Assembly (NCBI RefSeq): GCF_027912675.1
Contig: NZ_CP115757.1
Coordinates: 2,791,501 to 2,855,500 of the forward strand
Reading direction: 5' to 3'
DNA from: Paracoccus sp. SCSIO 75233
Lineage (GTDB): Bacteria > Pseudomonadota > Alphaproteobacteria > Rhodobacterales > Rhodobacteraceae
Length of the DNA stretch: 64,000 bases
In this document: positions 6,787-55,345 of the stretch, one piece after another
Position numbering within the stretch: position 1 is the stretch's first letter
How the letters are laid out: every line of letters starts with the position of its first letter
Translations under genes and position numbers: made by a program
The notes under the pieces: generated by a model
Databases searched by the model: none
Told to the model about the DNA's origin: nothing
The model's input: only the letters and a program-made list of their open reading frames with translations

Positions 6787-8187
6787 GTGAGCCGTTTCTC
6801 AGCCACGATCCTTTGTTCGTTTCTTCTTCTGATCTTCGTCCCGATCGCAAGCAATTCCCACGCCCAGACCACGCAGGAAACCTATGCGTTTCGCGACGCG
6901 GTGAATGTTCCGCCTGCCGGTTATGACGGTCCGGTTTTCAAACTCAGCCGCGACTATCCGACCGAAGATCCGGGCGCATGTGATGAAAGCGAATGCCCGT
7001 GGCTGTTTGTCGATGTGGATTTCACCTCCGGCGTGCCGGTGGATTGGGAAACCGGGCCGTGGAATGACTATATCATGGCCATTATGGAGGTGGTCACCCG
7101 CGGTCAGGATCCCGACATGTCGAATGACATGGGATTTCAGACCTCGGTGGATGGCGAGACCGCGTGGTACCACATTCCGTGGATGGCATATGATCCGACC
7201 GCAGGGCGTGAATTCGTGCATGGCACCACCAATGAGCGCACAGCGCATCTGGCCGATTTTCTCGGCAGCCCGATGCCGAACGCGACCCCGATCTGGGGCA
7301 TGTCGGAGGCATGCAAGCGTCGCTATCCGCATGGTTTCGAAAGCTGGGCGGTCGGTGCCTATAACAAATGGGGCGGCTATGCGATCGGGCAGGCCTTCGC
7401 CGCTGATGGTTCGCCGGTTCTGGTCGAAAAGGATGGCCGAATGCAGCCTGCCGGCCTGCCGTTCCCGGAAGGCACGCTTGTCACCAAATTCCTGACGACA
7501 AATGCCACGCCCGATTGCGTGCCCTACCTTGCCGACAGCGCCGTCTGGACGGTGAACCGCCACCAGCTTGGCGACGGCAATGAATATATGTGTGAACGGA
7601 CCATGCAGGAGACCCGCCTGACCCAGGTGGATGTCGCTGTCGTTGATCACCGCTCGCCGACACGCTGGGTCTATGGCACGTTCGGCTACGCCGCCGATGC
7701 ACCGGGCGAAACGGTTCTGGAACGGCTGGTCCCCTTAGGCCTTCAATGGGGCTCCGACCCCCAAACCTTCCCGGCCGTGCCAGAAAGTGACAGCGTTCCG
7801 GCGACCGAGAGCGTTCTCAACACCACGCTCGACACTTATGAGCATTGGGGCTGCGGAAAGCGGCTGGCAGGCCCGGTCGACAACCCGAAATCCTCCTGCG
7901 TGTCCTGCCATAACGCCGCCTTCGCGGCAGCAGATGGCGAAGTTTCGGATTTCGGCAAGAATATCCCTTCGGTCTTCGGTTTCGACGGCATCTGCGACAT
8001 TGGCGGCAGCGCGGACAACGCCGATTATTTCTCGAACTACCAGTTCCCGGCCCCGTATCCGGGCGGAGACTACCCCACTGCCGTGCCGCTGGACACGTCG
8101 CTGCAAATGGCGGTCGCGTTTACGCAATATGCGATCTTCAAGAATAACGGCGAACCGACAGCCTGCACCAACCCCAACCAGTTCTGA
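6787..8187 (+). CDS. Exported mono-haem c-type protein of unknown family
   Basis: I do not recognise the family. The 466-residue product starts at a GTG 6 bases after ACAGGAGGTCC. An in-frame ATG upstream at 6718 would bury the signal peptide. Residues 1-30 are a Sec signal peptide ending SNSHAQ. One haem-binding motif, CVSCH, lies about 80 residues from the C-terminus, preceded by an HWGCGK segment. Several further cysteines (for example in GACDESECPW) could form disulfides. The body is rich in Trp, Pro and Gly and looks like a periplasmic enzyme-sized domain, not a small electron carrier. It lies 18 bases upstream of a multicopper oxidase gene, in one operon. Confidence 0.75.
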   Translation: MSRFSATILCSFLLLIFVPIASNSHAQTTQETYAFRDAVNVPPAGYDGPVFKLSRDYPTEDPGACDESECPWLFVDVDFTSGVPVDWETGPWNDYIMAIMEVVTRGQDPDMSNDMGFQTSVDGETAWYHIPWMAYDPTAGREFVHGTTNERTAHLADFLGSPMPNATPIWGMSEACKRRYPHGFESWAVGAYNKWGGYAIGQAFAADGSPVLVEKDGRMQPAGLPFPEGTLVTKFLTTNATPDCVPYLADSAVWTVNRHQLGDGNEYMCERTMQETRLTQVDVAVVDHRSPTRWVYGTFGYAADAPGETVLERLVPLGLQWGSDPQTFPAVPESDSVPATESVLNTTLDTYEHWGCGKRLAGPVDNPKSSCVSCHNAAFAAADGEVSDFGKNIPSVFGFDGICDIGGSADNADYFSNYQFPAPYPGGDYPTAVPLDTSLQMAVAFTQYAIFKNNGEPTACTNPNQF

Positions 8188-8205
8188 GAGAAGGGGAGCA
8201 GGAAA

Positions 8206-10011
8206 ATGTCCAAGGTCACAAGACGGGGCTTTCTGTCCCGCTCCGGGTCGATACTGGCAATCGGATCGGCGACGGCAACACTCATACCCACCCGTGCCGC
8301 CGCGCAGAGCCCCGCGCCCGCCCCTGCCGGTCAATCGCGCGACTACAGGCTGACGGCGGATTGGCTGGTCACGACGCTGGACGGAACGCCGGTCAAATTG
8401 CGGGCGTGGAACGGAACCGTGCCCGGACCGACGCTGGAGGCGCGGCCCGGCGACACCGTGAATATCGAGGTCGTCAACAACCTGACCGCCTATGATTCCT
8501 CGGCATGGGACGGCAATCACAACGTGCCCCATGACCTGAACTCGACGAATCTGCATCTGCACGGGCTGGAGGTCGCACCGCATCTGTTCGAGCCGCTCGG
8601 CACATCCGATCCGCTCGCACCGATGATCTCGATCGCGCCGGAGGGCGGTCGGAAAAGCTACAGCTTCGCGATACCCGACGACCAGCCGCCCGGTCTTTAT
8701 TGGTACCACCCCCACAAGCACGGCTCGACCGCCGTGCAGGCGGTCAGCGGCATGGCCGGTGCCATTCTGATCCGGGGCAATCTCGACGATGTGCCGGAGA
8801 TCGCGGCGGCGGCGGAGCATATCATCGTCGTACAGGATATTGGCCTGTTTCCGACCGACGACCCGGCGAAAGACGGGGCCGGCACCTATATTTACGAGCC
8901 GAAGCAGAATGCCATCTGGCAGAGCTATGGCGGTCAGGTCACCATTCATGGCGAGGTGCAGCCGGAGTTGAAAGGCGGTTTCACGACCGGCGATTACCCG
9001 CTTCGATATTTCCTGCTCAATGGAAAGCCGTTTTTCAAGGAAACGCATAACCCGGATGATCCGACCAGCCCCGTCGGTATGCAGATCGACAGCGGAATCC
9101 CGACCTATCGGATGGCCCAAGGCGAGGTGGCGCGGTTTCGCATTCTGAATGCAAATTCGGATGATGTGATGCCCATCTCTCTGGCGGGGCATGATCTGCA
9201 TCTGATCGGCATGGATGGTGTGAACCTGCCCGCCTTGCGCAAGGTCGCGGCCCTCGCCCCGGATGCGCCCCAAACCGCCAGCCAATTGCTGCTCGGACCC
9301 GCCAATCGCGGGGAGTTTCTGGTCAAGGCAATCGACACCCCCGGAACATACGAGCTGCGTCAGGCGCCACAATCGCTGCAATTTCTGCACAGCGAAGGGC
9401 GGCTTCTGGCACGGCTGGTGGTTACGGACGATAAAAACGACATGCCCCTGCCCGCCAAATTGCCGGTGCAAACCCGGCATTTCCCGGTTCCCGCCGATGA
9501 CGCGGTCTCCCGGACCCGCTATGTCACCTTCGGCATGCAGTTTCCGGCCAAGGCCAATCCCGTCGTCGGCATCGATTTCTTCATCAACAACCAGCAATAT
9601 GATGAGCTGAGCGTGTCTCAGGTCGTGATGCTGAACGCGGTCGAAGACTGGATCATCGGCTCCCCCGGTCATCCCGACAAGACCCGCAAGGATGCGTCCT
9701 CGGGCCATCAGGACAACACCGAAGGCCACCCGTTCCATATCCACGCAAATTCCTTTGCCGTCATCGGCACCGCTGATGTCGCGCCGGATGGAACGGTGAT
9801 GAACGAGGTCCGCTTCGAGGGCGACGACATCCTGATTCAGGACACGGTCTGGGTGCCCATGGGCAAGCAGGTTCTCGTCCGGCATCATTTCAAGGAATGG
9901 ACCGGAAAGGCCGTCTATCACTGCCACATCCTGCCGCATGAAGACACCGGCATGATGCAGAATTTCCTGATTCTGGATCCTGAGAAGAAGAACGGACATC
10001 ACGAAACATGA
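8206..10011 (+). CDS. Tat-exported multicopper oxidase, laccase-like
   Basis: Multicopper oxidases take electrons one at a time at a type 1 copper and reduce O2 to water at a trinuclear copper centre. This 601-residue protein has a twin-arginine signal (TRRGFLSRSG, cleavage near AAA-Q). All four copper motifs are present: HLHG (117-120), HPHKHG (168-173), HPFHIH (508-513) and HCHILPHEDTGMM (572-584). The last holds the type 1 Cys573 and probable axial Met. The set is intact, so the enzyme should be active in the periplasm. No Met-rich insert like that of CueO is evident, so a role in copper tolerance is not indicated. It follows the mono-haem gene and precedes, across an IS, a dehydrogenase. 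Confidence 0.93.
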   Translation: MSKVTRRGFLSRSGSILAIGSATATLIPTRAAAQSPAPAPAGQSRDYRLTADWLVTTLDGTPVKLRAWNGTVPGPTLEARPGDTVNIEVVNNLTAYDSSAWDGNHNVPHDLNSTNLHLHGLEVAPHLFEPLGTSDPLAPMISIAPEGGRKSYSFAIPDDQPPGLYWYHPHKHGSTAVQAVSGMAGAILIRGNLDDVPEIAAAAEHIIVVQDIGLFPTDDPAKDGAGTYIYEPKQNAIWQSYGGQVTIHGEVQPELKGGFTTGDYPLRYFLLNGKPFFKETHNPDDPTSPVGMQIDSGIPTYRMAQGEVARFRILNANSDDVMPISLAGHDLHLIGMDGVNLPALRKVAALAPDAPQTASQLLLGPANRGEFLVKAIDTPGTYELRQAPQSLQFLHSEGRLLARLVVTDDKNDMPLPAKLPVQTRHFPVPADDAVSRTRYVTFGMQFPAKANPVVGIDFFINNQQYDELSVSQVVMLNAVEDWIIGSPGHPDKTRKDASSGHQDNTEGHPFHIHANSFAVIGTADVAPDGTVMNEVRFEGDDILIQDTVWVPMGKQVLVRHHFKEWTGKAVYHCHILPHEDTGMMQNFLILDPEKKNGHHET

Positions 10012-10064
10012 AGGGCTGCGCGCGCCCGACCCGTGCCGCGCGCGACCCGTGAGACAATTTCTGG

Positions 10065-10086
10065 CCTGAACCCACATTCTCCAAGT
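10065..10086 (+). repeat. Left terminal inverted repeat of the IS1380-family element
   Basis: It matches the complement of 11726-11747 at 17 of 22 positions, with the 13-base core ACATTC(T/C)CCAAGT nearly perfect. It starts 53 bases after the multicopper oxidase stop codon. Confidence 0.7.
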
Positions 10087-10164
10087 AAGTCGCTGATTTC
10101 GCTGTCGTAATCGTGATATTTCGCATATAAATCATGGCGTTGACGGCTGCGAGGGGCGCGTTTC

Positions 10165-11520
10165 ATGGATCACCTGGAGGGTGCGGGCTTGGCGCGGGGA
10201 GATCGGGTTGATTTCGACCGCCGTGTGCGTCTGGAGTTCCGTGGTGCGCAGATCAGTTCAGACGGTGGCCTGCTGGTGATGCGCGAGCTTGATGACGTGC
10301 TCGGCCTGTCCAATCTGGCGTCGGAGGCGCTGCGAGACAGCCGCACCGGGAAGAACACGCTCCATCGGCTTGACGGATTGTTCCGGCAATCGGTGTTCGG
10401 ACGACTGGCCGGATACGAGGATGTGAACGATGCCGACCGCTTGGCCCTCGATCCCGTGATGCGTCAGGTCGTTGGCGGCAGGGCCGTCGAGGCGCAAGCT
10501 GCTTCGGCATCGCAGATGGGACGGTTCGAGACCGAGACGCTGGCTCTGGCCGCGAACCGGGCGGCGCTGGCCGATCTGAACGGCCAATGGATCGACCGGT
10601 TTCATGACCGCAACGGGTTGCAATACATCGTGCTGGACATGGACAGCTCGGTCAGCCCCACCCACGGCGATCAGGAAGGTGCTGCCTGGAACGGGCATTT
10701 CGACTGCACCTGCTATCACCCCATCTTCTTGTTCAACCAGTTTGGCATGCTGGAGCGCTGCGCCCTGCGTAACGGCAATGTCCACAGCGCCGATGGCTGG
10801 CGGGATGTCCTTGATCCCGTCATTGCCCGATATGCTGGCCGCGACCTTGGTGGACGCTTCTTCCGGGCCGACGCTGCCTACGCGATCCCCGCGATCTATA
10901 TGCGGCTGGAAGAAGCCAGGTTCTTCTACGCCATCCGTCTGCCCGCCAACGCCGTCTTGCGCGAGAAGATCGCGCATCGGCTGACACGGCCCGTGGGACG
11001 GCCTTCGCTGACCAAGGTCAAACGGTTCTTCGAGGACTTCGAGTATCAGGCGGCGTCCTGGGACAAGCCGCGCCGCGTCATCGCCAAGATCGAATGGCAT
11101 CCGGGCGAGCTGTTCCCCAAAGTCGGCTTCATCGTCACCAACCTGCCGATGGAGCCAGACTGGGTGGTGAGGTTCTACAACCAGCGCGGCACCGCAGAGC
11201 AGCACATCAAGGAAGGCAAATATGCCTTTCGCTGGACGCGGCTGTCATGCCGGAAGTTCCGGCACAACGAGGTGCGGCTGCAACTGCACGCGCTGGCCTA
11301 CAACCTGGCAACCTTCCTGCGCTGCATCGAACTGCCCGAGGCCATGGCGGACTGGTCGTTGACCAGCCTGCAACTCAAGCTGATCAAGATCGGCGCCCGC
11401 GTCGTCCGCCACGCCCGCGCCATTACCTTCCAGTTGGCCGAGGTCGCCGTCACCGGCCCGATGGTGCGGGCCGTCCTTGCCGCCATCCGCCGTCTTCGAA
11501 CGCCTCCGTCATGCGCATGA
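10165..11520 (+). CDS. IS1380-family transposase
   Basis: This DDE transposase catalyses cut-and-paste movement of the surrounding element. The 451-residue protein is full length for the family. It has the opening FRGAQISSDGGLLVMRELD, the first catalytic-aspartate block DMDSSVSPTHGDQEG (near residues 155-170), an RADAAYAIP block with a later acidic residue, and the YNQRGTAEQHIKEGKY motif containing the last Glu. No frameshift is visible, so the element may still be mobile. The ATG at 10165 lies 100 bases inside the left repeat. The IRs and length agree with an intact copy. Confidence 0.95.
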   Translation: MDHLEGAGLARGDRVDFDRRVRLEFRGAQISSDGGLLVMRELDDVLGLSNLASEALRDSRTGKNTLHRLDGLFRQSVFGRLAGYEDVNDADRLALDPVMRQVVGGRAVEAQAASASQMGRFETETLALAANRAALADLNGQWIDRFHDRNGLQYIVLDMDSSVSPTHGDQEGAAWNGHFDCTCYHPIFLFNQFGMLERCALRNGNVHSADGWRDVLDPVIARYAGRDLGGRFFRADAAYAIPAIYMRLEEARFFYAIRLPANAVLREKIAHRLTRPVGRPSLTKVKRFFEDFEYQAASWDKPRRVIAKIEWHPGELFPKVGFIVTNLPMEPDWVVRFYNQRGTAEQHIKEGKYAFRWTRLSCRKFRHNEVRLQLHALAYNLATFLRCIELPEAMADWSLTSLQLKLIKIGARVVRHARAITFQLAEVAVTGPMVRAVLAAIRRLRTPPSCA

Positions 11521-11725
11521 CCACGATCCATGCCCAAGCTGAACGAAAGCGGCAGGACAGGTCCGTCTGCCGCGCGGAAAAGCGGCTCTGCCGGGCCAGA
11601 ATGCTGCGGGTTCGAGGCTTGATCCACCCGACTTCGGCCGTTTGCGCGACGACAGACACCGCTCGGGGCGAAAAACGCTTGCCCAGCGAGCAAAATCAGG
11701 CGATCTTGAAGTCAAGCGGCAGGCC

Positions 11726-11747
11726 ACTTGGGGAATGTCGGCTGAAG
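11726..11747 (-). repeat. Right terminal inverted repeat of the IS1380-family element
   Basis: It is the partner of 10065-10086. It ends 46 bases before the small dehydrogenase subunit start, so the downstream promoter context of that gene was replaced by IS sequence. Confidence 0.7.
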
Positions 11748-11793
11748 ACACACCGGACCCGTCGCGGAAAACGGATATTCAGAGGAGATGACT

Positions 11794-12252
11794 ATGGTTG
11801 CAACCCATGAAACAGATTGCCGATCCTTTGTTACACACAGCCTGACACGCCGGCGGCTGCTATCCGCAGCCTCCGCCGCATCGCTGCTGCCATTGACTCA
11901 GTTTCCCGCAAGAGCATTCGCCGCCGATATAGAACTCTCGGATTTTATCGCGCTGTCGCAAAAACTGACCGGACGCGACGATCTGGCGGAGGACATCGCA
12001 CGCGGCATGCTGAATGCCTTCTCCGCGATTGGCCGAGATGGCGACATCGCCGATATGATCGCGGGCGAGAGCAATGACGAACTCGCCGGTGCCATCGTCG
12101 CGGCCTGGTATAGCGGTGAATCGCCGGACCCGGACGCGCTCGATGTTCTGACCTATACGGATGCCCTCACCTGGCAGGCGATCGAATACACCAAACCGAT
12201 GGCCTATTGCGGCGGAGCCATGGGCTATTGGGCCGACCCGCCCGAAAGCTGA
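11794..12252 (+). CDS. FAD-dependent sugar/alcohol dehydrogenase, small (Tat-chaperone) subunit
   Basis: This resembles the small (gamma) subunit of membrane-bound FAD dehydrogenases such as D-sorbitol and glucose dehydrogenase. That subunit carries the Tat signal and escorts the signal-less large subunit to the periplasm. The 152-residue protein has LTRRRLLSAASAASLLP as its Tat motif and an Ala-rich cleavage region ARAFAA. A helical domain follows, ending YCGGAMGYWADPP. I start it at the ATG at 11794, which has AGAGGAG six bases upstream. The ATG at 11788 abuts that site. It is 53 bases from the GMC gene and forms an operon with it. Confidence 0.85.
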   Translation: MVATHETDCRSFVTHSLTRRRLLSAASAASLLPLTQFPARAFAADIELSDFIALSQKLTGRDDLAEDIARGMLNAFSAIGRDGDIADMIAGESNDELAGAIVAAWYSGESPDPDALDVLTYTDALTWQAIEYTKPMAYCGGAMGYWADPPES

Positions 12253-12305
12253 GTTTCCGCCTTCGCAATCATCCTTCACGCCATATCGCTCAGGGAATTT
12301 CGGTC

Positions 12306-13925
12306 ATGGAACACGACATCAACGCAGATATTCTGATTATCGGCACAGGCATCGCAGGCGCGCTTGCCGGGGCCAAGCTCGCACAGAAGGGCCTGACAGT
12401 CGCCTTTCTGGAAACCGGCAAACGGATCGACCGGTCCGACGCGGTCGAGAATTTCTGGAACGCGAAGATCAAGACACCGGAGTCCCCCTATCCCAACGAT
12501 GCGTCCGCGCCGCATCCTCTGGCCTATAAGATCGGGGAATATTATCAGCAGGCCGGGCCGGAAAATTTCAAATCGACCTATATCAAGCTGGTTGGCGGCA
12601 CGACTTGGCACTGGCTGGGCACAACGCTGCGAAACCTGCCTGCGGATTTCAAATTGCAGTCGCTTTACGGGCATGCCGTCGACTGGCCGATTGATTATGA
12701 CACGCTGGAGCCGTTTTATCTCGCCGCCGAGCAGGAGATCGGCGTCTCCGGCGACAGCGCCGAAGATTTGGGCTCGCCCAGATCCGGTGCGTTTCCAATG
12801 CCGATGATCCCGATGTCCTATTCGGACCGCTATTTCGCAGACGCATTGGAGGGGTCGCAATATCACGTCCGCGCCACGCCGCAGGGCCGGAACTCGGTTT
12901 TCCGTGAGGATCGGCCCGAATGCTGCGGCAATGGCTCCTGCATCCCGGTTTGCCCCATTCAGGCGAAATATGATGCAACGGTTCACATCGCCCAGGCCGA
13001 GGCTGCCGGTGCCGTCATCCACGCGCAAACCACGGCCACAAGGCTGGATCTGGGGCCGGATGGCAAGATTGCATCGGTCAGCTTCCGGCGCGCGGATGGC
13101 AGCGAAGGCACGGCTGCGGGCAAGGTCGTCGTGATCGCGGCCCATGCCATAGAAACCCCCCGCCTCTTGCTGAACTCCGCGCAGGACGGGGCGCCGAACG
13201 GGATTGCCAACAGCTCCGATCAGGTCGGGCGCAACCTGATGGACCACCCCTCCAAGCTGAGCTGGGCCATGGCCGCCAATCCGGTCTGGCCGTTCCGCGG
13301 CCCGCTTTCCACCTCCGGGATCGAAAATCTGCGCGACGGCGCGTTTCGCAAGGATCGCGCGGCGTTTCGGATCGAGATCGGAAATGACGGTCATAACTGG
13401 CCGACCGGCGCGCCGCTGTCCACGGCTGCCGATCTGGCACGTCAGGGGCTGCGCGGCGCGGAACTGGACGCAGCGATCCGGGACGCGACATCGCGCCAGA
13501 TTCGCCTGACGTCGCTGGTGGAACAATCGCCGGACGCGGAAAACCGCGTGACGCTCGATCCCGAAAAGCGGGATGTCAATGGCGTTCCCCTGCCCCGGAT
13601 TCACTATGATTATTCCGAATATACCCGCGCCGGTCTGGAGGCCGCGGAAGCCGCGCATCAGGACATCTTCACCCGACTGGGCGCGACAGAGATCAAGCAT
13701 TCCCCCGATATTTATGGCGCAGGCCATGTCATCGGCACGGTGCGCATGGGCGCGGAGCCGCAAAATTCGGTGGTCGACGCCGATCTGCGCAGCTTCGACC
13801 ATCCCAACCTGTTCCTGCTGGGTTCAGGCAGCTTCCCGACATCCGCCACAGCAAACCCGACACTCACCATAGCCGCGCTGTCGCTGCGCGCCGTGGAGGC
13901 CATCGCGGGAACCGTGAGGGGTTAG
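12306..13925 (+). CDS. GMC-family FAD dehydrogenase large subunit with probable [3Fe-4S] site
   Basis: This 539-residue flavoprotein would oxidise an alcohol or sugar hydroxyl. The FAD dinucleotide fold starts ADILIIGTGIAGALAG (GTGIAG at 13-18). The C-terminal GMC active site has His474 in GAGHVIGT and the later TSATANPTLTIAA segment. Four cysteines, C206, C207, C212 and C216 in ECCGNGSCIPVC, match the CC-x4-C-x3-C spacing that binds a [3Fe-4S] cluster in bacterial FAD-glucose dehydrogenase. Electrons should therefore leave through an iron-sulfur cluster to a cytochrome, not to O2 directly. The protein has no signal, so export with the Tat small subunit is expected. A dedicated tri-haem subunit is missing here. 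The substrate is unknown. Confidence 0.9.
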   Translation: MEHDINADILIIGTGIAGALAGAKLAQKGLTVAFLETGKRIDRSDAVENFWNAKIKTPESPYPNDASAPHPLAYKIGEYYQQAGPENFKSTYIKLVGGTTWHWLGTTLRNLPADFKLQSLYGHAVDWPIDYDTLEPFYLAAEQEIGVSGDSAEDLGSPRSGAFPMPMIPMSYSDRYFADALEGSQYHVRATPQGRNSVFREDRPECCGNGSCIPVCPIQAKYDATVHIAQAEAAGAVIHAQTTATRLDLGPDGKIASVSFRRADGSEGTAAGKVVVIAAHAIETPRLLLNSAQDGAPNGIANSSDQVGRNLMDHPSKLSWAMAANPVWPFRGPLSTSGIENLRDGAFRKDRAAFRIEIGNDGHNWPTGAPLSTAADLARQGLRGAELDAAIRDATSRQIRLTSLVEQSPDAENRVTLDPEKRDVNGVPLPRIHYDYSEYTRAGLEAAEAAHQDIFTRLGATEIKHSPDIYGAGHVIGTVRMGAEPQNSVVDADLRSFDHPNLFLLGSGSFPTSATANPTLTIAALSLRAVEAIAGTVRG

Positions 13926-13986: not shown

Positions 13987-14064
13987 ATGTCGGCTTTACG
14001 TCTGGTTGCGGTTCTTATGGGTCACGGGATGCCGCCCTCCTCGCCTATCCCACCACATCGGTGA
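13987..14064 (+). CDS. Possible 25-residue peptide with a strong ribosome-binding site
   Basis: AAAAAAGGAGGAGAT sits directly upstream of an ATG that opens a 25-codon frame (MSALRLVAVLMGHGMP, then Ser/Pro-rich, stop TGA). The Shine-Dalgarno sequence is unusually good. The frame runs 20 bases into the 3' end of the convergent aminotransferase gene. It has no recognised homologue and may be the truncated head of a lost gene. Low confidence. Confidence 0.25.
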   Translation: MSALRLVAVLMGHGMPPSSPIPPHR

Positions 14065-15367
14065 TCGCGCCTGTCAGCCGTTCGACGATCTGATCGACCT
14101 CGTCGGCGCTGACGATATAGGGCGGTGCCAGCAGCACATGATCGCCGCGCGCGCCGTCGACCGTGCCGCCCATCGGGTAGCAGATCAGCCCGCGCGCCAT
14201 GGCGGCTTTCTTGATCTTCGCATGGGTTTTCAGCGCCGGATCGAGCGTGGCCTTGCTGTCGCTATCCGCGACCAGCTCTATGCCCCGGAAGAGGCCTCTG
14301 CCCCTGATATCGCCGATATTGGGGTGCTGGCCGAGGGCGGCTTCCAGCCCGTCCTGAAGGCGCTGCCCCATGATGTTCACATTCTCCATCAGACCGGGCC
14401 GGGACATGATCTCGACCACCTTATCCGCCGCCGTGGCAGCGATCGGGTGTCCGATATAGGTGTGGCCATGCTGGAACAGGCCCGAGCCATTGCGGAACGC
14501 GTCATGGATGTGCGCCGACAGCATCACCGCGCCGACGGGCTGGTAACCGCCGCCGAGTCCCTTCGCGATTGTCAGGATGTCCGGCACCACGCCCTCTTGT
14601 TCATGGGCGAAGATGGTGCCGGTCCGGCCCATGCCGCACATCACCTCGTCCAGGATCAGCAGCACATCGTATTTGTCGCAGATCTCGCGGATGCGGCGGA
14701 AATACCCCTCGACCGCCGGCACCGCGCCAAGTGTCGCGCCGACGACGGGTTCGGCCACGAAGGCAATGACCTCATCGGGGCCAAGCGTGACGATCTTCTC
14801 CTCAAGCTCGGCCGCCAGCCTTGCGGCATAATCGCCGGGGGACTCACCTTCGGCCATGTCGCGATAGGCGTAACAGGGCGAGACGTGATGCGTCTCCGGC
14901 AGGATCGGCTGGAATTGCTTGCGCCGCCACTCATTGCCGCCGGTCGCAAGCGCCCCGATGGTATTGCCGTGATAGCTCTGCCGCCGGGCGATAATATGGC
15001 GGCGCTGCGGCTGGCCGATCTCGACGAAATATTGCCGTGCCATTTTCAGCGCCGCCTCGACCGCCTCCGACCCGCCGGAGACGAGATAGACGTAATCCAG
15101 CCCGTCAGGCGCAAGCCCGACCAGCCGGTCGGCCAGCGATTCCGCCGCATCGCTGGTGAAGAACGAGGTGTGGGCATAGGCAATCGCTTCCATCTGCGCG
15201 CGCATCGCCTCCAGCACCTCGGCATTGCCATGACCAAGGCTCGTCACCGCCGCCCCGCCCGAACCGTCGATATAGCGCCGTCCTTGATCATCGGTGATCC
15301 AGACCCCTTCCCCCGCAACGGCGCGGGGCAGATTGGGGCCGATGCTGCGGTGAAGAATGCGGGTCAT
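14045..15367 (-). CDS. Class III PLP-dependent aminotransferase
   Basis: This fold-type I, omega-type aminotransferase moves an amino group from an amine or omega-amino acid to a keto acid. The 440-residue length suits the class. D240 (LILDEVMCGMGRTG) contacts the PLP ring nitrogen and K269 (TIAKGLGGG) is the PLP lysine. YHGNT (132-136) and the HGHTYIGHP segment are also typical. I start at 15367 (MTRILHRS), where the homologous fold begins. Upstream in-frame codons to 15553 have no folded domain. It is divergent from the aldehyde dehydrogenase gene, and the pair would turn an amine into an aldehyde and then an acid. Confidence 0.9.
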   Translation of the reverse strand: MTRILHRSIGPNLPRAVAGEGVWITDDQGRRYIDGSGGAAVTSLGHGNAEVLEAMRAQMEAIAYAHTSFFTSDAAESLADRLVGLAPDGLDYVYLVSGGSEAVEAALKMARQYFVEIGQPQRRHIIARRQSYHGNTIGALATGGNEWRRKQFQPILPETHHVSPCYAYRDMAEGESPGDYAARLAAELEEKIVTLGPDEVIAFVAEPVVGATLGAVPAVEGYFRRIREICDKYDVLLILDEVMCGMGRTGTIFAHEQEGVVPDILTIAKGLGGGYQPVGAVMLSAHIHDAFRNGSGLFQHGHTYIGHPIAATAADKVVEIMSRPGLMENVNIMGQRLQDGLEAALGQHPNIGDIRGRGLFRGIELVADSDSKATLDPALKTHAKIKKAAMARGLICYPMGGTVDGARGDHVLLAPPYIVSADEVDQIVERLTGAITDVVG

Positions 15368-15690
15368 GCGATGCTCCGGCTCTGATGTGGTCCCGGCAGC
15401 ATTCCACCAGTCGCGGGACGAGGCAAGCGGTCCCGAGCGGGCACCGATGTGACATATGCCAAACGACTTGCAATTGTCGCGCGCGCCAGCCGTAATGACC
15501 GCAGCAACCGGCCCGGTCTGTTCCGGCATCAGCCGGGCGGCAGGGAATGTCACGGGTCATCGCCTCAAGCGCGCCGGTCGTGAATTTCCGGCACCCCAGG
15601 CGCCGCCGTCACCAAGGGTCGTTGCGGGGTTTGTATACTTCATGTATGCAAATCTGGAATTCTCGATCCATGATCCAAGCGGAGTCTCTC
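15368..15690. promoter_or_regulatory. Divergent control region, aminotransferase / aldehyde dehydrogenase
   Basis: This 323-base gap holds the promoters of the two divergent catabolic genes. The only clear signal is the dyad at 15631-15651, close to the aldehyde dehydrogenase side. No supported gene lies inside. Confidence 0.5.
15631..15651. promoter_or_regulatory. Operator-like dyad TTGTATAC-N5-GTATGCAA
   Basis: The two 8-base arms match at 7 of 8 positions round TTCAT. The site is 40 bases before the aldehyde dehydrogenase start. The core ATAC-N5-GTAT recurs at 17247-17261, before the ABC transporter. Dyads of this type are typical of GntR-family repressors. The cognate protein is not identified. 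Confidence 0.55.
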
Positions 15691-20283: not shown

Positions 20284-20418
20284 ATGTCTCGACCCGATGT
20301 GATCGTGACCGGGGCCGGCATTGTCGGCCCCTCACCCGAGCTGGCGTTGCAGACGCGAGGGATGGCGCGCGCGGTTGCGGGCAGCAATGTCGCCGCGCAT
20401 GGCTTCGCCCCGAAATGA
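20284..20418 (+). pseudogene. 44-codon remnant of an FAD-dependent (DadA-like) oxidoreductase
   Basis: The frame begins [15 protein letters not shown], a classic FAD-binding N-terminus with GxGxxG. After about 17 residues it jumps to [19 protein letters not shown] and stops at residue 44. Members of the family are about 400 residues, so most of the gene is gone, presumably by an internal deletion. The stop overlaps the ATG of the aconitase X gene as ATGA, so translational coupling is kept. In related loci such a flavoprotein could be a D-hydroxyproline or amino-acid dehydrogenase. It might persist as a leader peptide. Not known to be expressed. Confidence 0.55.
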
Positions 20419-22097
20419 CCGCGACGCGCATCCTGCCCGGCACCGGCGAAGGCCCGGTTCTGGCAATGGCATCCGGCCTCAGTTTCTGGGGCGGCGTCGA
20501 TCCGGCGACGGCGCGCGTGATCGACACCCATCATCCCGCCCATGATGCCGAACTTGCGGGCCGCGTCGTGATGATGCCGACCAGCCGGGGCTCATGCTCC
20601 GGTTCCGGCGTCATATTGGAGATGATGCTGAACGGCTGCGCCCCTGCCGCGCTGATCTTTTCCGAGGCAGAGGACGTGGCGACCCTCGGCGCCCTGATCG
20701 GGGCGGAGATGTTCGGCAAGACACTGCCCGTCCTGCGCGTGACCCCTGACGATTTTGCCCGGCTGTCACGGGCGGCAAATCTGACGATTACCGCCGACGC
20801 AATCTGCGGGGACGGGCTGCACCTGCCCATCCAGGACCCGCACCGGACGGCACTGCAACTGACACCCGAAGATAACGCCATCCTGTCGGGTCGTGATGGC
20901 GAGGCCGCAGCACTTGCCATGCGCATCGTCTGTGTCATGGCGCGGCTGCAAGGGGCGACGGCGCTGACAGATGTCACGCGCGGCCATATCGACGGCTGCA
21001 TCCTCGCCAATCAGGCCAATCTGATCTTTGCCGAGAAGATGGACGCTCTGGGCGCGAAAATCCGCGTCCCGACGACGGTCAACGCGATTTCCGTGGATCG
21101 GGAGAACTGGCAATCCCAAGGCGTTCCGCAGCTTTTCGGCAGTCAGGCGGCGCGGCTGGCCGATGCCTATGTGCGCATGGGGTGCCAGCCGACATTCACC
21201 TGCGCCCCCTATCTGCTGAATGACCGCCCGGGCGAAGGCGACAGCATCGCGTGGGCCGAATCCAACGCGGTGATCTATGCCAACAGCGCGCTCGGTGCCA
21301 GAACCCCGAAACATCCCGATTATCTGGATCTCTGCATCGCTGTCACCGGCCGCGCGCCGCTGTCCGGTGTCTATCTGGAGCAGGAACGCCGCCCCGCCCG
21401 CATTCTCGACATCGCGGCACCTGCCGGGATCGACGACAGTTTCTGGCCGCTGATCGGCTATATCGCCGGGCTGAAATCGCCGGATCGCATCCCGCTCCTG
21501 CGCGGGATTGCCGCGCGCCACCCGTCGCAGGACGACATCAAGGCGCTATGCGCTGCCTTCGGAACCACCTCCGCCGCCCCGATGCTGCATATCGCAGGGG
21601 TGACGCCCGAATCCCAACTGCCGCCGCGCGAGGACGCTGATACGCTGCAAATTACGCACGACGATATGTCTGCTGCATGGCACGATCTGAACCAGGGTCC
21701 GCAGCAGGTCGACCTGATCGCCTTGGGCAGCCCCCACGCCTCCGCCGATGAATGCGCGCAGTTCGCGGCTCTGCTGAATGGCCGGCAGGTCAGTATCCCG
21801 ACCATCATCACCGTCGGGCGCGAGGTGATGGCGGCGATCCGTCAAAGCGATACCCTCGAAACGCTGACCAGACTGGGTGTGACGATTATCCCCGACCTCT
21901 GCTGGTGCTCGATCACCGAACCGGTCTTTCCGCCCGAAGCCCGAACCGTCATGACCAATTCCGGGAAGTACGCCCATTACGGCCCCGGATTGTCAGGCCG
22001 CGCACTGCGCTTCGGCAGTCTGCGTGACTGTGCGGAAGCGGCGTCCTCCGGCTTGGCGCCAGCGGCAGCGCCTGAATGGGTGAAGCTGCCGGGCTGA
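20415..22097 (+). CDS. Aconitase X, single-chain; probable cis-3-hydroxy-L-proline dehydratase
   Basis: Aconitase X proteins of bacteria dehydrate cis-3-hydroxy-L-proline to pyrroline-2-carboxylate. This 560-residue chain has the small swivel domain first (residues about 1-130, with [13 protein letters not shown] and [15 protein letters not shown]). The large catalytic domain follows, so the two subunits of archaeal forms are fused. Cysteine-bearing motifs in the large domain, for example [13 protein letters not shown] and [13 protein letters not shown], fit the Fe-S or metal site. [16 protein letters not shown] near the C-terminus is also typical. The neighbouring transporter and aldehyde dehydrogenase agree with imino-acid degradation. 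The substrate is inferred from the family. Confidence 0.88.
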
Positions 22098-43584: not shown

Positions 43585-45147
43585 CTAATGGCTGGTGCCT
43601 TCGGAAAAGGTGATCTTATTCCAGACATTGTATTTCCCTGACGGCTTGTTCATGGGCAGACGCATCACCTCTTCCAGCGTTGCCGCATCATAGACGATCA
43701 CGGCACCGTCCTCCTCCCAGACAGAGACCAGCGCATATCGCCCGTCGCGCGTGAACTCCACATGCGCAACCGTGGCGCCGGGTTCGGGGCGGAGCGTTTT
43801 CACGATCTCCAGCGATTGCTTGTCGATGACATGCATGACATCGCGATTCGGGCCAAAGAAGACGTCGGCCCAGAAATAGGGGGTGTTTTCGTGGCTGCGC
43901 AGGAAGAAGCCGGGGCCCTCGGTTTCGATGGTGCTCACCAGTTCCCAGCTTTCCGTATCGATGACCGAAATCTTGCCTTCCTTCAGATGCGGCGTGGCCA
44001 TCACGCGCCGGTCGCCCCTGTCCCAGCTGATACCGGACCCCAGATGCGGCATACCGTTCAACGGCAGCTCGGCAATCTCCTGCCCGACGGTGAGGTTGAC
44101 CACCACGGCGCGACTGCCGTCGCGCGCCGCGCCGATCAGGTTTCTGTAGTCGTCGGAGAAGAAGAAATCATCCAGCGGTTCGGCGATCTCGATCCGGCGC
44201 CGGGCGAAGAGGCCCTCGGAGGACGGGATGGCCTCCACCATATCCTTTTCATAGCTGTGGACGAACCCTTCATAGACCGCCGCCGCGTCCGGGTCGGTCG
44301 CAACCTCCCAGATCTCGGCCGCGTCCTTGAGCGCGAGGATGAAGGAGTCGCGTTGCGGTGCCTGGTAGACCGCGGAAACGCGGCTTTGCGTTCCGTCCCT
44401 GGCGATGATTGGCATGACCTTGACCGGCGTCAGATCATCGGTCGACAGGATCGCCAGTGTCATCGGCAGGTAGTTGGCCACGGCGAGCCATTTTCCGTCG
44501 CGGCTGATCGCGATATTGCGGCTGTTGAGCCCGGCGCGCACCCGGCCCACTTCCTGCAGCGACCACAGGTCGTATTTCTGCACCCAGCCATCGCGCGACA
44601 TGATGAAGACGAACCGCCCGTCCGGGCTGAATTTCGGCCCGCCATGCACGGCGAACGGCGTCGGGAACCGGTCGAGCACCTCGAAACTGTCCCCATCCAG
44701 CACGGAAACATGATGATCGCCGGTTTCCACCACCAAGGTGATGTTCATCGGATCGGCGGACCAGATCGGCGCATCGGCCGCCTCATATCCGGTGCTCATC
44801 TCCCGGCTGGCCGTGATGTCGATGTCGGTCCAGTCCGGCACGACGTCCAGCGGCGTCGTCAGATATTCGGTCAGGGCGGCGATCTGATCCGCTGTCAGCG
44901 CTTCGGCAAAGCCGGGCATCTGTGTGGCCGGGCGACCGAGGGCGATCACCTCGTCCAGAACCGGTCCCCGCATCCGGCCAAGCGTTTCCGGGATCAGCGC
45001 CGGTCCCAGCCCACCCAGCCGGTTTTCGCCGTGGCATTCGGCGCAGTGGGTCCGGAAATCCTCATCCGCTTCGGCAAGGGCCTGGGTGGGCGGACATAGC
45101 AGCAGTGCGGCTGCGGCAGCCCTAATCGAAATTATGAACCGGGTCAT
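43585..45147 (-). CDS. nirN: NirN, dihydro-haem d1 dehydrogenase (cytochrome c / d1 type)
   Basis: NirN introduces the acrylate double bond in the last step of haem d1 synthesis, in the periplasm. The 520-residue protein has a signal peptide (ending QALA), a small cytochrome c domain with C35-A-E-C-H39, and then an eight-bladed d1-type propeller to the end. It is a paralogue of NirS in overall plan. It overlaps nirJ by 26 bases. Position at the end of nirSECFDLGHJN agrees. The alternative, a second NirS, is less likely because the c domain is short and the order fits NirN. Confidence 0.92.
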
Positions 45148-47258: not shown

Positions 47259-48247
47259 GCGGCCTCTCCTTTTTCCGACAGGATCAAGGCGCCGGTTTGT
47301 TTGAAGCAGCGGGTGGAGAACAGAACCTTGTGCGCCGCCCGGGCGAGCCCCGGCAGGGCCTGTATCCGGGCAAGTGTCGCCAATGCCTCCGACCGGCTGC
47401 GCGCGTGGATCATGTTGTAGAGCCGGTAATCCCAGATCCCGGCAACCGGCCGGCGCTCATAACACAGGGTCACGCCGGGCAGCCGGGCCAGAACCGGCCC
47501 GATCTCGGCACAGTCGTCGTGACTGACATTCCAGACGCACATCGCATTTGACCGCCAGCCGAGTGCCCGATGGCGCACGATCACACCGAGCCGGGAGATA
47601 ACCCCGGCCTTGGCCAGAGCCGCCACACGTTCCAGCACCTCCTCTTCGTGGCGGCGCAGATGGGATGCGATGGCGGCCCAGGGGTGCGGCGTGAGCGGAA
47701 GGCCCCGGGTCAGGCATTGCAGGATCTCGCGGTCGCCCGTTCGCATCGCCGCGCGGTCCACGGATCGCGGCCCGGCCACAGGCCCGGCCTGTCCCTTCAT
47801 GCAGAAACCGAGATCGACATTGAACGGTCGCACCAGCCGCAGGTCCAGCACCTGTCGGTCGGTGCGCTCGGAAATGCGGGCCAGAGCGTTATCCACATGC
47901 GTGCGATCCGGGCCCGTCACCACGAACCACAGGTTCCACGCGTCCTCCCGCAGGTAGGAGTGGTTGACGCCCGGCTCCTGCCCGATAATTCCGGCCACAT
48001 GTTCCAGCTCATCCGGCCCGGCCTGCAAGGCTGCGAGCGTGCTGGCAGATACGATATTGGGCGCACAGGTTGCGCCGACGCGGGCGATCCGCCCGGCCTC
48101 CTGCATCCGTCCGAGCCGCTCCAGAACCTCGCATTCGCCGATGCTCAGCCGTGCGGCGAGAACCGCGAAAGGGGCCGGTATGACGGGAAATCCCCGCTGC
48201 CAGTCGTTCAGCAGGGCGGCATCGACGGGATCTGCGACGCTCTGCAT
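47255..48247 (-). CDS. nirDL: NirDL, fused siroheme decarboxylase subunits
   Basis: This 330-residue chain contains two AsnC/Lrp-like units in tandem, each starting with an L-x-x-x-Q/R-G-P-P-x-P-type block (LLNDWQRGFPVIPAPF near 13, LQCLTRGLPLTPHPW near 177). It is a natural NirD-NirL fusion, as known in some denitrifiers. The blocks NHSYLREDAWNLWFV and LCYERRPVAGIWDYRLYN carry the probable substrate-site residues. It starts within the nirF stop codon (TAATG) and overlaps nirG. Confidence 0.9.
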   Translation of the reverse strand: MQSVADPVDAALLNDWQRGFPVIPAPFAVLAARLSIGECEVLERLGRMQEAGRIARVGATCAPNIVSASTLAALQAGPDELEHVAGIIGQEPGVNHSYLREDAWNLWFVVTGPDRTHVDNALARISERTDRQVLDLRLVRPFNVDLGFCMKGQAGPVAGPRSVDRAAMRTGDREILQCLTRGLPLTPHPWAAIASHLRRHEEEVLERVAALAKAGVISRLGVIVRHRALGWRSNAMCVWNVSHDDCAEIGPVLARLPGVTLCYERRPVAGIWDYRLYNMIHARSRSEALATLARIQALPGLARAAHKVLFSTRCFKQTGALILSEKGEAA

Positions 48248-49395
48248 TACAGCCCCGTCCGATGCGCACGGGCGGTGAAGAAGATGCCCGAGGGACTTTC
48301 GGCCTCGATCTCACCACGTTTTTCAAACGTTCTCGTGTCGTAGATCATGATCTTTCCGGCATCCCGGACCGATATCCAGACCTCGTTCCCGCGCGGCGTG
48401 AATTCCATATGCAGCACGGCAGGACCGGGCTTGAACTCATGGACCACCTGCTTGGTCACCGTATCGATCACCTGAATTGTGTCGTTCAGCGGATGGGCGA
48501 AATTGACCCAGACCTGCCGTCCATCCGGTCGGGCCATTGCAAAAACGGGCCGGCCATATGTCGCCGTGCGTCCTGTTTCGGTGAAATCGCGGGCATCCAC
48601 CCACAGCACCTCGTGCCGTCCCACTGCAGGCAGAACGAACTCGGCACCCGTCGACGCCCATCCTTCCAGATGCGGCATCTTATAGACCGGCAAAGGCGCC
48701 TCGCCACGACCATAGCCGGGCAGCACCTGTATCGGCTCCGGCGTTTCGGCCCACAGATCCAGCGCGGTCAGCCCGTCCTCTCCAAAGAGCCCCGCGATGT
48801 AGGTCCGGCCATTTCCGGTCATCAGCGCATCATAGGGGTTCTGGCCAATCCCGGTGATTTTCGTGATGTCGGGATCGTCGCCGGACAGGTCGGCAATCCA
48901 TGTCTCACCCGCATCCCAGAGGCTGAAGACAAATCGTCTGCCGGGCGCATCAGCCAGCCCGATGGTCTTCGACCCGGTCGGAATATCGGCCACCATGTCC
49001 AGCGTTTCGGCGTCGAAAATACGCACGCCGCCCGGTTCGTAATTCGACACGGCCACCAATGCGCCATCGTCGGAGATCGCGCCGCCAATGGCGTTTCCGG
49101 CCTGGACCACCCGGCCAGCGATGCGGCGTTCGGTGATGTCGACCTTGGTCAATCCTCCGTCACGACCAAAGACATAGGCGAAGCGTTCGTCCGGCGAATA
49201 GACCAGCGAGGCATGCGACAGATCGCCCAACCCCTCGATCCGGGCCAGAGCCGCCCGGTCGGACTGGTCGATAAGCAGGACGGAGCCGCTGGCGCGCTCG
49301 ATCACCAACCCCAGATCGCCGGTGGCCACGGTCTCTGACATGGCGGCGGTCCCGGCGAACGCCAGTGCTGCGAAGGTCAGGATCAGGGGTCTCAT
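48247..49395 (-). CDS. nirF: NirF, haem d1 biogenesis protein
   Basis: NirF is a periplasmic d1-type propeller protein that acts late in haem d1 synthesis, probably as precursor-binding or dehydrogenase partner of NirN. The 382-residue protein has a signal peptide (LTFAALAFAGTAAMS) and propeller repeats such as SHASLVYSPDERFAYVFGRDG and VLHMEFTPRGNEVWISVRD. No CXXCH motif is present. The ATG at 49395 overlaps the nirC stop (ATGA). Upstream in-frame codons inside nirC are not coding. Confidence 0.93.
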   Translation of the reverse strand: MRPLILTFAALAFAGTAAMSETVATGDLGLVIERASGSVLLIDQSDRAALARIEGLGDLSHASLVYSPDERFAYVFGRDGGLTKVDITERRIAGRVVQAGNAIGGAISDDGALVAVSNYEPGGVRIFDAETLDMVADIPTGSKTIGLADAPGRRFVFSLWDAGETWIADLSGDDPDITKITGIGQNPYDALMTGNGRTYIAGLFGEDGLTALDLWAETPEPIQVLPGYGRGEAPLPVYKMPHLEGWASTGAEFVLPAVGRHEVLWVDARDFTETGRTATYGRPVFAMARPDGRQVWVNFAHPLNDTIQVIDTVTKQVVHEFKPGPAVLHMEFTPRGNEVWISVRDAGKIMIYDTRTFEKRGEIEAESPSGIFFTARAHRTGL

Positions 49396-49691
49396 TCGTT
49401 TTCTCCCGTTAGAAGATAATCGGCGATCCAGCGTGCCTCCTCGTCCGACATCAACGGTGCCCACGGCGGCATCGGCGTTCCGGGCACGCCCTGAAGAATG
49501 ACGGAGGCCAGTCCGTCGCGGTCGTAATGGGCCAGCATGTCCGCTGTCAGCCCGGGGCCCAGACCACCCTTGAGCGTGAGCCCGTGGCAGGAGCCGCAAT
49601 CCTGATGGACAAGCCGCCGGAGCGCATCGCCATCAAGATCCCCGGCCAGTGCCGGAGCACATGAGATCGCAAGGACCAGAAGGCTACGCAT
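49392..49691 (-). CDS. nirC: NirC, small cytochrome c of the nir cluster
   Basis: Periplasmic class I c-type cytochrome, 99 residues, which can feed electrons to cytochrome cd1 or assist its maturation. Signal peptide to about ALA-G; haem motif C32-G-S-C-H36; probable axial Met in PGTPMPPW. It overlaps nirE by 8 bases and nirF by 4. Confidence 0.93.
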   Translation of the reverse strand: MRSLLVLAISCAPALAGDLDGDALRRLVHQDCGSCHGLTLKGGLGPGLTADMLAHYDRDGLASVILQGVPGTPMPPWAPLMSDEEARWIADYLLTGENE

Positions 49692-53125: not shown

Positions 53126-54523
53126 ATGAAATATCAAACGCAAAAGATCGCGATGGCCTATTTCTCGGTGGCATTGGCGCTTTTCGCGATCCAGATCATC
53201 GGCGGGCTGATGGTCGGCTATGTCTACGTCAACCCCAACTTCATGGCGGAGCTTCTGCCGTTCAACACTTTGCGGATGCTGCACACCAATTCGCTGATCG
53301 TCTGGCTGTTGCTGGGCTTTTTCGGTGCTGCCTATTTCCTGATCCCGGAAGAGGCGGAGCGCGACATCTATTCGCCAAAGCTGGCCTATCTTCAGCTGAT
53401 CATCCTGGTGGTCGGAACGCTGGGTGTGGTGCTCACCTATGTCTTCAACCTGTTCGAGGGGAACTGGCTTCTCGGCAAGGAGGGGCGTGAATTTCTGGAG
53501 CAACCCAAATGGGTGAAGGTCGGTATCGTGGTTGCGGCGCTGATTTTCCTGTTCAACGTCTCGATGACCGTGCTGAAAGGCAAGAAGACGGCGATCACCA
53601 ATGTCCTTCTGCTGGGCCTCTGGGGGCTTGCACTGCTGTTCCTGTTTGCCTTCTACAACCCGTCAAACCTCGCGCTCGACAAGCAATACTGGTGGTTCGT
53701 GGTTCACCTCTGGGTCGAAGGCGTGTGGGAACTGATCATGGCGTCGATCCTGGCCTATCTGATGCTCAAGCTGACCGGCGTTGACCGCGAAGTGGTGGAA
53801 AAATGGCTCTATGTCATTGTCGCACTGGCGCTGTTCTCCGGCATTCTCGGCACCGGGCACCATTATTACTGGGTCGGCGGACCGGGCTACTGGCAGTGGA
53901 TCGGCTCGATCTTCTCCTCGCTGGAAGTGGTCCCGTTCTTCGCCATGATGGCTTTCGCCTTCGTCATGGTCTGGAAGGGCCGGCGCGATCATCCCAACAA
54001 GGCCGCACTGCTCTGGTCGCTGGGCTGTGCCACACTCGCCTTCTTCGGCGCCGGTGTCTGGGGCTTCCTGCACACGCTGCACGGGGTAAACTACTACACC
54101 CACGGCACCCAGATCACGGCAGCGCATGGGCATCTGGCGTTTTATGGCGCCTATGTCTGCCTGAATATCGCGATCTTCACCTATGCGATGCCGATCCTGC
54201 GCAACCGCGATCCGTACAATCAGGTTCTCAACATGAGCTCCTTCTGGTTGATGTCGGGCGGCATGGTCTTCATGACCTTTACCCTGACCTTCGCAGGCAC
54301 GGTACAGACCCATATGCAGCGCGTGCTGGGTGAGTATTTCATGGACGTGCAGGACCAGCTCACGATCTTCTACTGGATGCGCTTCTTCTCGGGCGTCGCC
54401 GTGTTCATCGGTGTGCTGATGCTCATCTACTCGCTGGCAATGCCGCGCAAGGAGCTGGTCCCTCCGGGCCCGCAAAAGCGTCGCGGGCTGACGGATGATC
54501 CCGACCACATGGCCGCGGAGTAA
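53126..54523 (+). CDS. norB: NorB, catalytic subunit of nitric oxide reductase (cNor)
   Basis: NorB reduces two NO to N2O at a haem b3 / non-haem iron site. The 465-residue, twelve-helix protein keeps the haem and metal ligands: His in MLHTNSLIVWLLLGF, HLWVEGVWELI, GTGHHYYW, and the HGHLAFYGAY motif. Glutamates in the WVEGVWE helix are also conserved. It lacks the N-terminal extension of quinol-type NOR, in agreement with a NorC partner. It is followed 5 bases later by norQ. Confidence 0.97.
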   Translation: MKYQTQKIAMAYFSVALALFAIQIIGGLMVGYVYVNPNFMAELLPFNTLRMLHTNSLIVWLLLGFFGAAYFLIPEEAERDIYSPKLAYLQLIILVVGTLGVVLTYVFNLFEGNWLLGKEGREFLEQPKWVKVGIVVAALIFLFNVSMTVLKGKKTAITNVLLLGLWGLALLFLFAFYNPSNLALDKQYWWFVVHLWVEGVWELIMASILAYLMLKLTGVDREVVEKWLYVIVALALFSGILGTGHHYYWVGGPGYWQWIGSIFSSLEVVPFFAMMAFAFVMVWKGRRDHPNKAALLWSLGCATLAFFGAGVWGFLHTLHGVNYYTHGTQITAAHGHLAFYGAYVCLNIAIFTYAMPILRNRDPYNQVLNMSSFWLMSGGMVFMTFTLTFAGTVQTHMQRVLGEYFMDVQDQLTIFYWMRFFSGVAVFIGVLMLIYSLAMPRKELVPPGPQKRRGLTDDPDHMAAE

Positions 54524-54528
54524 CACCG

Positions 54529-55335
54529 ATGACCGGCAAACCAGATCGGACGGAGGGGGCTGAGGCCCCCTTCTACCTTGCCCAGACTGATGAATGCGAG
54601 GTTTTCGAAGCCGCATTCAACAACCGCCTGCCGCTGCTGCTGAAAGGACCGACCGGCTGCGGCAAGACCCGCTTCGTCGCGCATATGGCTGCGAGGCTGG
54701 GCCGGTCGCTTCACACCGTCGCCTGTCACGACGACCTGTCCGCCGCCGACCTGATCGGACGCTACCTGCTGAAAGGTGGTGAAACCGTCTGGGTCGACGG
54801 CCCCCTGACGCGGGCGGTGCGCGATGGCGCGATCTGCTATCTCGACGAGGTGGTGGAGGCCCGCAAGGACGTGACCGTCGTGCTGCATCCGCTGACCGAC
54901 GACCGCCGCATCCTGCCGATCGACCGCACCGGGGAAGAGTTGATTGCCGCCCCCGGCTTCATGCTGGTCGCGTCCTATAATCCCGGTTACCAGAACATCC
55001 TCAAAACCCTCAAACCCTCGACCCGTCAGCGTTTTGTCTCGCTCGAATTCAGCTTCCCCGAACCGGCGGAGGAAGAGCGGATCGTCGCCCGGGAAAGCGG
55101 GCTGGACCCCGACCGGGTTAGGGCGCTTGTGCGGCTGGCGGGCAAACTGCGCGGTTTGAAAGGGCAGGATCTGGAGGAAGGGGTTTCAACCCGCCTCGTG
55201 GTCTATGCCGCCACGCTGATCCATCAGGGCCTGCCCGTCGAGCGGGCGATCCACGTCGCGATGATTGAACCGCTGACCGACGATGAGGATACGAAACGCG
55301 GGCTCCTCGATCTGGTCACGGCCGTCTTTGGGTGA
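54529..55335 (+). CDS. norQ: NorQ, MoxR-type AAA+ ATPase
   Basis: NorQ works with NorD to insert the non-haem iron into NorB. 268 residues, with Walker A GPTGCGKTR (near 40-48), Walker B ICYLDEVVEARKD and a sensor asparagine in ASYNPGYQ. Operon position between norB and norD is normal. Ends 10 bases before the norD start. Confidence 0.94.
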   Translation: MTGKPDRTEGAEAPFYLAQTDECEVFEAAFNNRLPLLLKGPTGCGKTRFVAHMAARLGRSLHTVACHDDLSAADLIGRYLLKGGETVWVDGPLTRAVRDGAICYLDEVVEARKDVTVVLHPLTDDRRILPIDRTGEELIAAPGFMLVASYNPGYQNILKTLKPSTRQRFVSLEFSFPEPAEEERIVARESGLDPDRVRALVRLAGKLRGLKGQDLEEGVSTRLVVYAATLIHQGLPVERAIHVAMIEPLTDDEDTKRGLLDLVTAVFG

Positions 55336-55345
55336 GGTTGGCCCC

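Follow-up and report, generated by a model that had tools for sequence, protein, structure and literature searches.

A large haem protein, apparently a relative of cytochromes P460/c'-beta, encoded beside a multicopper oxidase and a flavin dehydrogenase in Paracoccus

What does a single-haem protein do when it is encoded beside a multicopper oxidase and a flavin adenine dinucleotide (FAD)-dependent dehydrogenase that lacks a tri-haem subunit? This arrangement is found in a 64,000-nucleotide stretch of Paracoccus sp. SCSIO 75233 (contig NZ_CP115757.1, positions 2,791,501 to 2,855,500 of the forward strand), the whole of which we call the window. Profile, predicted fold and residues point to a relationship of the large and divergent haem protein with the cytochrome P460/c'-beta superfamily, although it misses the Pfam cut-off. 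We favour, at somewhat less than an even chance, a reading in which a P460-like catalytic haem would pass electrons to its oxidase and the dehydrogenase would be an added front end. The locus consists of five genes in a 3.9 Mb genome, all on the plus strand and where a preliminary description had placed them; its four redox genes run in one direction, as that description held.

6787..8187, plus strand: large mono-haem protein of 466 amino acids, probably a divergent P460/c'-beta superfamily relative (sequence, profile, predicted fold)
8206..10011, plus strand: three-domain multicopper oxidase of the twin-arginine translocation (Tat) type, 601 amino acids (Pfam domains, copper motifs)
10165..11520, plus strand: transposase of an IS1380 insertion sequence (IS), between the oxidase and small subunit genes (NCBIfam)
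11788..12252, plus strand: Tat small subunit of a dehydrogenase of the FAD-glucose dehydrogenase type (PF12318)
12303..13925, plus strand: GMC flavoprotein of the FAD-glucose dehydrogenase/fructose dehydrogenase type, 540 amino acids (PDB match, cysteine motif)

The haem protein gene begins with a GTG start codon preceded by AGGAGGT, and its product carries a Sec-like signal by eye, the manner in which export signals and localisation were judged throughout. The protein contains a single haem motif. Residue counts for this family, which has 630 homologues, were taken over the 120 that were listed.

7897..7911, plus strand: haem-binding motif CVSCH, residues 371-375 (sequence; both Cys in 120 of 120 homologues, His in 119 of 120)

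No Pfam or NCBIfam family matches the protein at E 0.001. Its score against Cytochrome P460 (PF16694) is 12.4 bits, below the cut-off of 27 (E 0.22), and 15 of 30 members of the haem family match the same profile weakly (best E 0.0024); because the cut-off is missed, the protein is filed as a relative of the P460 superfamily and not as a P460. Foldseek searches with either predicted model yielded no significant match, and a PDB sequence search with the haem-family profile yielded two matches, both at chance level. The chief change to the preliminary description is that its 'unknown mono-haem protein' appears to have recognisable kin. The obvious reading as an ordinary electron-carrier cytochrome c was considered and is not preferred: none of the Pfam cytochrome domains fits, and the Met that follows the haem motif varies (111 of 120 homologues have it; the window protein has Phe).

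Two residues of the haem protein align with pocket residues of P460 enzymes, and a third is likened to one by eye.

7486..7488, plus strand: codon of Lys234, aligned with the P460 cross-linking lysine (120 of 120 homologues)
7630..7632, plus strand: codon of Asp282, aligned with the P460 distal carboxylate (120 of 120 homologues)
7336..7338, plus strand: codon of Phe184, putative counterpart (by eye) of the P460 capping residue (118 of 120 homologues)

Lys234 sits in the motif FPEGT-x-x-x-K, and alignments place it on the lysine that is cross-linked to the haem in P460; in structure 6w6n, listed as a K106L/A131E mutant, the position aligned with Lys234 is changed. According to Table 2 of a review (PMC11928373), the distal carboxylate is Glu96 in N. 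europaea and Asp102 in M. capsulatus, the inactive enzyme of Nitrosomonas sp. having Ala131 there, and both active P460 enzymes combine the cross-link and the carboxylate with a Phe or Arg cap. In 46 pieces from the loci surveyed below, the Lys and the Asp are each present in 44, the exceptions being one wrong-frame and one broken piece. Since the P460 catalytic Lys and distal acid are kept in all 120 listed relatives, the haem protein is perhaps not a plain electron carrier, and together with the aromatic residue they argue for a haem that may be reactive.

Other invariant residues speak against an open site at the haem. His145, His259 and His353 occur in all 120 homologues and Met133 in 99 of 99; any of these could be an axial haem ligand, and for that reason an ordinary electron carrier is still conceivable. 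An invariant His and Met pair would suit the scheme of the preliminary description, a linear chain in which electrons run from the substrate through FAD/[3Fe-4S] to a mono-haem relay that replaces the tri-haem subunit, and then through the multicopper oxidase to O2. The invariance of the P460-type pocket is a point against such a relay and, taken with the gene neighbourhoods described below, leads us to consider the linear chain possible but doubtful.

To what, then, is the haem gene coupled? When genome contigs were scanned with the alignment of the haem family, using two short peptide patterns, 41 loci were obtained, and in 21 of these the same oxidase subfamily is encoded downstream of the haem gene on the same strand. 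Judging from record names, we take these 21 loci to represent at least four phyla (Pseudomonadota, Acidobacteriota, Myxococcota and Chloroflexota). When 40 genomes (all but that of L034) were searched whole, the oxidase was detected at E 1e-70 in 21, and in 20 of them it is situated in the haem locus; the remaining genome (L039) has its piece at a contig end. The window oxidase is complete, as previously described, with three Cu-oxidase Pfam domains over cut-off, a Tat-like N-terminus by eye, and all of the copper motifs, namely HLH, HPHKH, HPFHIH and a fourth given below. It scores under every NCBIfam equivalog cut-off listed.

9919..9954, plus strand: copper-ligand motif HCHILPHEDTGM (sequence)

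The remaining partners differ from locus to locus. A GMC relative is encoded in 5 of the 41 loci (L008, L018, L027, L033 and L041) and in 9 of the 40 genomes at E 1e-60; it is found in three of the 21 haem-oxidase loci (L008, L018 and L041, in the last ∼9 kb away on the opposite strand) and is missing from the other 18. Three further haem-oxidase loci (L032, L036 and L040; six of the 41 overall) contain a molybdenum hydroxylase of the xanthine dehydrogenase type, which in L036 lies between the haem and oxidase genes. A nucleoside hydrolase is encoded in ten (L009, L011, L012, L014, L016, L017, L024, L026, L034 and L038), one (L015) has only a protein resembling a phosphorylase, whose Pfam score is under the cut-off, and no partner was seen in four (L010, L013, L023 and L028), each near a contig end. 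Among these varying partners, haem protein and oxidase thus form the stable unit. Over all 41 loci, nucleoside hydrolase (PF01156) or phosphorylase-like genes stand beside the haem gene in 12 (those eleven and L021); their presence, with that of the xanthine dehydrogenase-type genes, may point to a nucleoside or a purine as the substrate in the organisms concerned.

These neighbourhoods bear on the linear chain in both directions. That the haem gene also stands beside molybdenum hydroxylases would be in keeping with a relay, but a GMC gene accompanies only 3 of 21 haem-oxidase pairs. Moreover, no signal peptide was seen by eye in the nucleoside hydrolases, the phosphorylase-like proteins, the molybdenum hydroxylases or the acidobacterial small subunits read (L018 and L033), and with such partners there is no obvious route by which electrons would pass directly to an exported haem. 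The frequency of the oxidase pairing, the scarcity of GMC genes and the P460 pocket residues do not agree with the suggestion that the haem protein simply replaces a tri-haem subunit.

An acetoacetate decarboxylase-like protein (PF06314; weak, below cut-off) accompanies the GMC gene in three of the five GMC-bearing loci.

L027, 1587-2423: PF06314-like protein
L033, 7592-8416: PF06314-like protein
L041, 3220-4041: PF06314-like protein

The dehydrogenase pair of the window has the features previously ascribed to it. The small subunit matches PF12318 with 57.8 bits (cut-off 24.2) and has a Tat-like N-terminus by eye; the GMC protein finds its best PDB match in B. cepacia glucose dehydrogenase (E 5.8e-127), with fructose dehydrogenase also among the best, and contains the expected cysteine motif.

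12921..12953, plus strand: iron-sulfur motif CC-x4-C-x3-C, residues 207-217 (GMC sequence)

The description of four exported proteins agrees with signals seen on the haem protein, the oxidase and the small subunit, which would also suit the linear chain, but the GMC protein has no signal peptide of its own by eye. In known complexes the small subunit is a 'hitch-hiker' protein for Tat export, and in the B. cepacia enzyme a disulfide joins alpha Cys213 to gamma Cys152 (both PMC9727119). Counterparts of both cysteines, read by eye, are present in the window proteins. In L018 (7508-9900) both are lost, with Ala in the GMC protein and Ser in the small subunit, and this joint loss fits a retained complex of the two. 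The catalytic His of the GMC protein is kept, and the preceding residue is Gly where glucose and fructose dehydrogenases have Asn, which makes another substrate likely. Fused GMC forms, suspected from long frames, were not confirmed on inspection: the L085 frame starts with Met at the GMC protein, and the extra length in L083 looks by eye like wrong-frame read-through.

Do the four redox genes belong together? In Salipiger mucosus (L008), contiguous haem, oxidase, small subunit and GMC genes follow one another as in the window but lack the IS, 66 bp separating the oxidase from the small subunit, which argues against a grouping by chance. Identities to the window proteins are 74% for the haem protein, 78% and 69% for the oxidase (in two pieces), 59% for the small subunit and 82% for the GMC protein, which is the only GMC match of that organism at E 1e-60. 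The acidobacterial metagenome-assembled genome L018 has the same partners in a different gene order. Conservation without the IS, which the preliminary description had proposed as a check, is thus found, and together with L018 it counts in favour of the linear chain. Because S. mucosus keeps the four genes in order, they are probably one ancestral operon that was interrupted by IS1380. The transposase scores 387.1 bits against an NCBIfam cut-off of 180; the ends of the element are perhaps near 10091 and 11703, where there is a weak inverted repeat (1 of 32 inverted pairs), and no clear target duplication was found at them. The gene after the GMC gene encodes a class III aminotransferase (14045-15553, minus strand).

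The position of IS1380 between the second and third genes raises the alternative of a decaying operon, in which the element cuts transcription of the small subunit and GMC genes and the whole unit no longer works here. The oxidase of S. mucosus DSM 16094, which in the deposited draft is split over two overlapping frames (L008 ∼12777-12832; a frameshift or a draft error), might be viewed in the same light. Yet all four redox reading frames are open in the window, and an insertion sequence can also bring a promoter. We consider decay very improbable.

A different alternative is that two independent units share the operon, the haem protein with its oxidase and the small subunit/GMC pair with another acceptor, for example the tri-haem cytochrome of the genome or a soluble cytochrome c. 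In 18 of 21 loci the haem-oxidase pair is found without a GMC gene, and Ca. Rhodobacter lobularis, of the same family as the host, carries the pair but gave no match to the GMC protein at E 1e-60. The concern that oxidase and dehydrogenase might lie in unrelated places does not hold for S. mucosus; elsewhere the pair is independent of GMC. As the preliminary description had noted, no tri-haem gene is present at the window locus, a point in favour of the linear chain, and none is present in L008. The genome does contain one tri-haem match (L075, 459 amino acids with three CxxCH), which could serve such an independent dehydrogenase, but it directly adjoins a different GMC gene ∼2.7 Mb from the locus in contig coordinates; a tri-haem gene elsewhere thus exists, as the earlier description had allowed, and goes with another dehydrogenase. 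For GMC relatives in the genus the neighbour is a tri-haem gene in L054 and a small mono-haem gene in L053, which speaks for such independent units. Against this stand the contiguity of the four genes in S. mucosus and their independent ordering in L018, and we judge two independent units to be improbable.

The haem family has a homologue in c2, another family of large mono-haem proteins, which returns the same P460/c'-beta list. c2 has an invariant Lys and an invariant His, the latter where the haem family has the acid. Of the 20 loci with no oxidase beside the haem gene, 9 carry c2; in total, 10 of the 41 loci have it next to the haem gene (L018, L019, L022, L025, L027, L030, L033, L035, L037 and L047), of which only L018 has the oxidase, and it is upstream of the small subunit and GMC genes in L018 and L033. 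No c2 gene was found in the window genome, a weak negative. The haem family itself is rare among close relatives: at E 1e-40 it was detected in 3 of 394 sampled genomes of the taxonomic family (that of the window, Ca. R. lobularis and one with a distant homologue at 29% identity), at E 1e-30 in 1 of 386 of the class, and the oxidase at E 1e-70 in 1 of 295, the last two being the window's own.

According to the reading that we prefer, the core pair would consist of the large mono-haem P460/c'-beta relative and the Tat-type multicopper oxidase. The site at the haem, probably of the P460 type and modified by lysine, would oxidise a small substrate at the iron; electrons would pass from it to the type 1 copper of the oxidase, and the trinuclear copper site would reduce O2 to water. 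The added dehydrogenase may either supply the substrate for the haem step or feed electrons into the haem/copper unit. A broader proposition, which we put forward as speculative and rather unlikely, is that the haem family forms a widespread P460-type class, some three times as long as the solved P460s, for which O2 would be the driving oxidant by way of a multicopper oxidase of its own, and that with its sister family it serves exchangeable GMC-flavin or molybdenum dehydrogenases. In the window this class would be combined with a FAD/[3Fe-4S] dehydrogenase in a single operon; P460-type haems would then be general periplasmic catalysts or electron sinks and not a peculiarity of nitrifiers and methanotrophs.

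Elsewhere in the window, ∼35 kb from the P460-like gene, lie genes that encode cytochrome d1 domains, a COX1-type protein of 465 amino acids and a VWA protein, and this group looks like a denitrification cluster. One cytochrome d1 protein also has a cytochrome c domain, as in the nitrite reductase NirS. P460/c'-beta proteins have been linked to nitric oxide and hydroxylamine. The window also encodes aconitase X and its swivel domain in a single frame of 560 amino acids.

43585-45147, minus strand; 48247-49599, minus strand; 53126-54523, plus strand; 55283-57274, plus strand: cytochrome d1, COX1-type and VWA proteins
20415-22097, plus strand: aconitase X with its swivel domain

Research on cytochromes P460 has dealt with small proteins from nitrifiers and methanotrophs. 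If a large relative that bears the P460 pocket residues occurs in several phyla and is tied genetically to dehydrogenases and to a copper oxidase that reduces O2, P460 chemistry would be wider and would gain a defined redox partner. The locus also points out a haem family that had no Pfam or NCBIfam match, and a dehydrogenase pair of the FAD-glucose dehydrogenase type with no tri-haem subunit in its gene cluster. The P460 review (PMC11928373) states that relatives exist whose functions are still to be resolved. Among the papers listed, judged by titles and abstract openings and with most subscription journals outside the scope, none describes a P460-like protein with a multicopper oxidase, though three papers mention both.

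Comparison with known systems places each component. Nucleoside oxidase, a flavin/haem complex that oxidises a sugar hydroxyl with O2, is a conceivable precedent; its sole link to the window is the nucleoside hydrolases of related loci, and passages of PMC11871447 do no more than cite the enzyme. A transferred fragment of Yersinia mollaretii encodes a laccase and two 'cytochrome c family proteins' (PMC3192119); the likeness is one of gene neighbourhood, cytochrome c genes standing close to one for a multicopper oxidase, and the cytochromes are not described in that passage. Three-domain multicopper oxidases of the laccase/CueO type share with the window oxidase the three domains, all copper motifs and a Tat-like N-terminus, whereas the window oxidase is below the listed equivalog cut-offs and belongs to a subfamily paired with the haem protein. 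The FAD-glucose dehydrogenase of B. cepacia and the fructose dehydrogenase of Gluconobacter have in common with the window pair the GMC protein with a [3Fe-4S] motif, the Tat small subunit and the catalytic His; they differ in the tri-haem subunit and the Asn before that His. With the cytochromes P460/c'-beta (PF16694; N. europaea, M. capsulatus and Nitrosomonas sp. AL212), the haem protein shares a single c-type haem, a predicted beta-rich fold and, at the positions that align, the Lys and distal acid that the active enzymes have. It departs from them in its length of 466 amino acids, against ∼135-160 in the solved structures, in an extra conserved Cys and inserts, in lacking a Pfam match over cut-off, and in having a multicopper oxidase as its gene partner.
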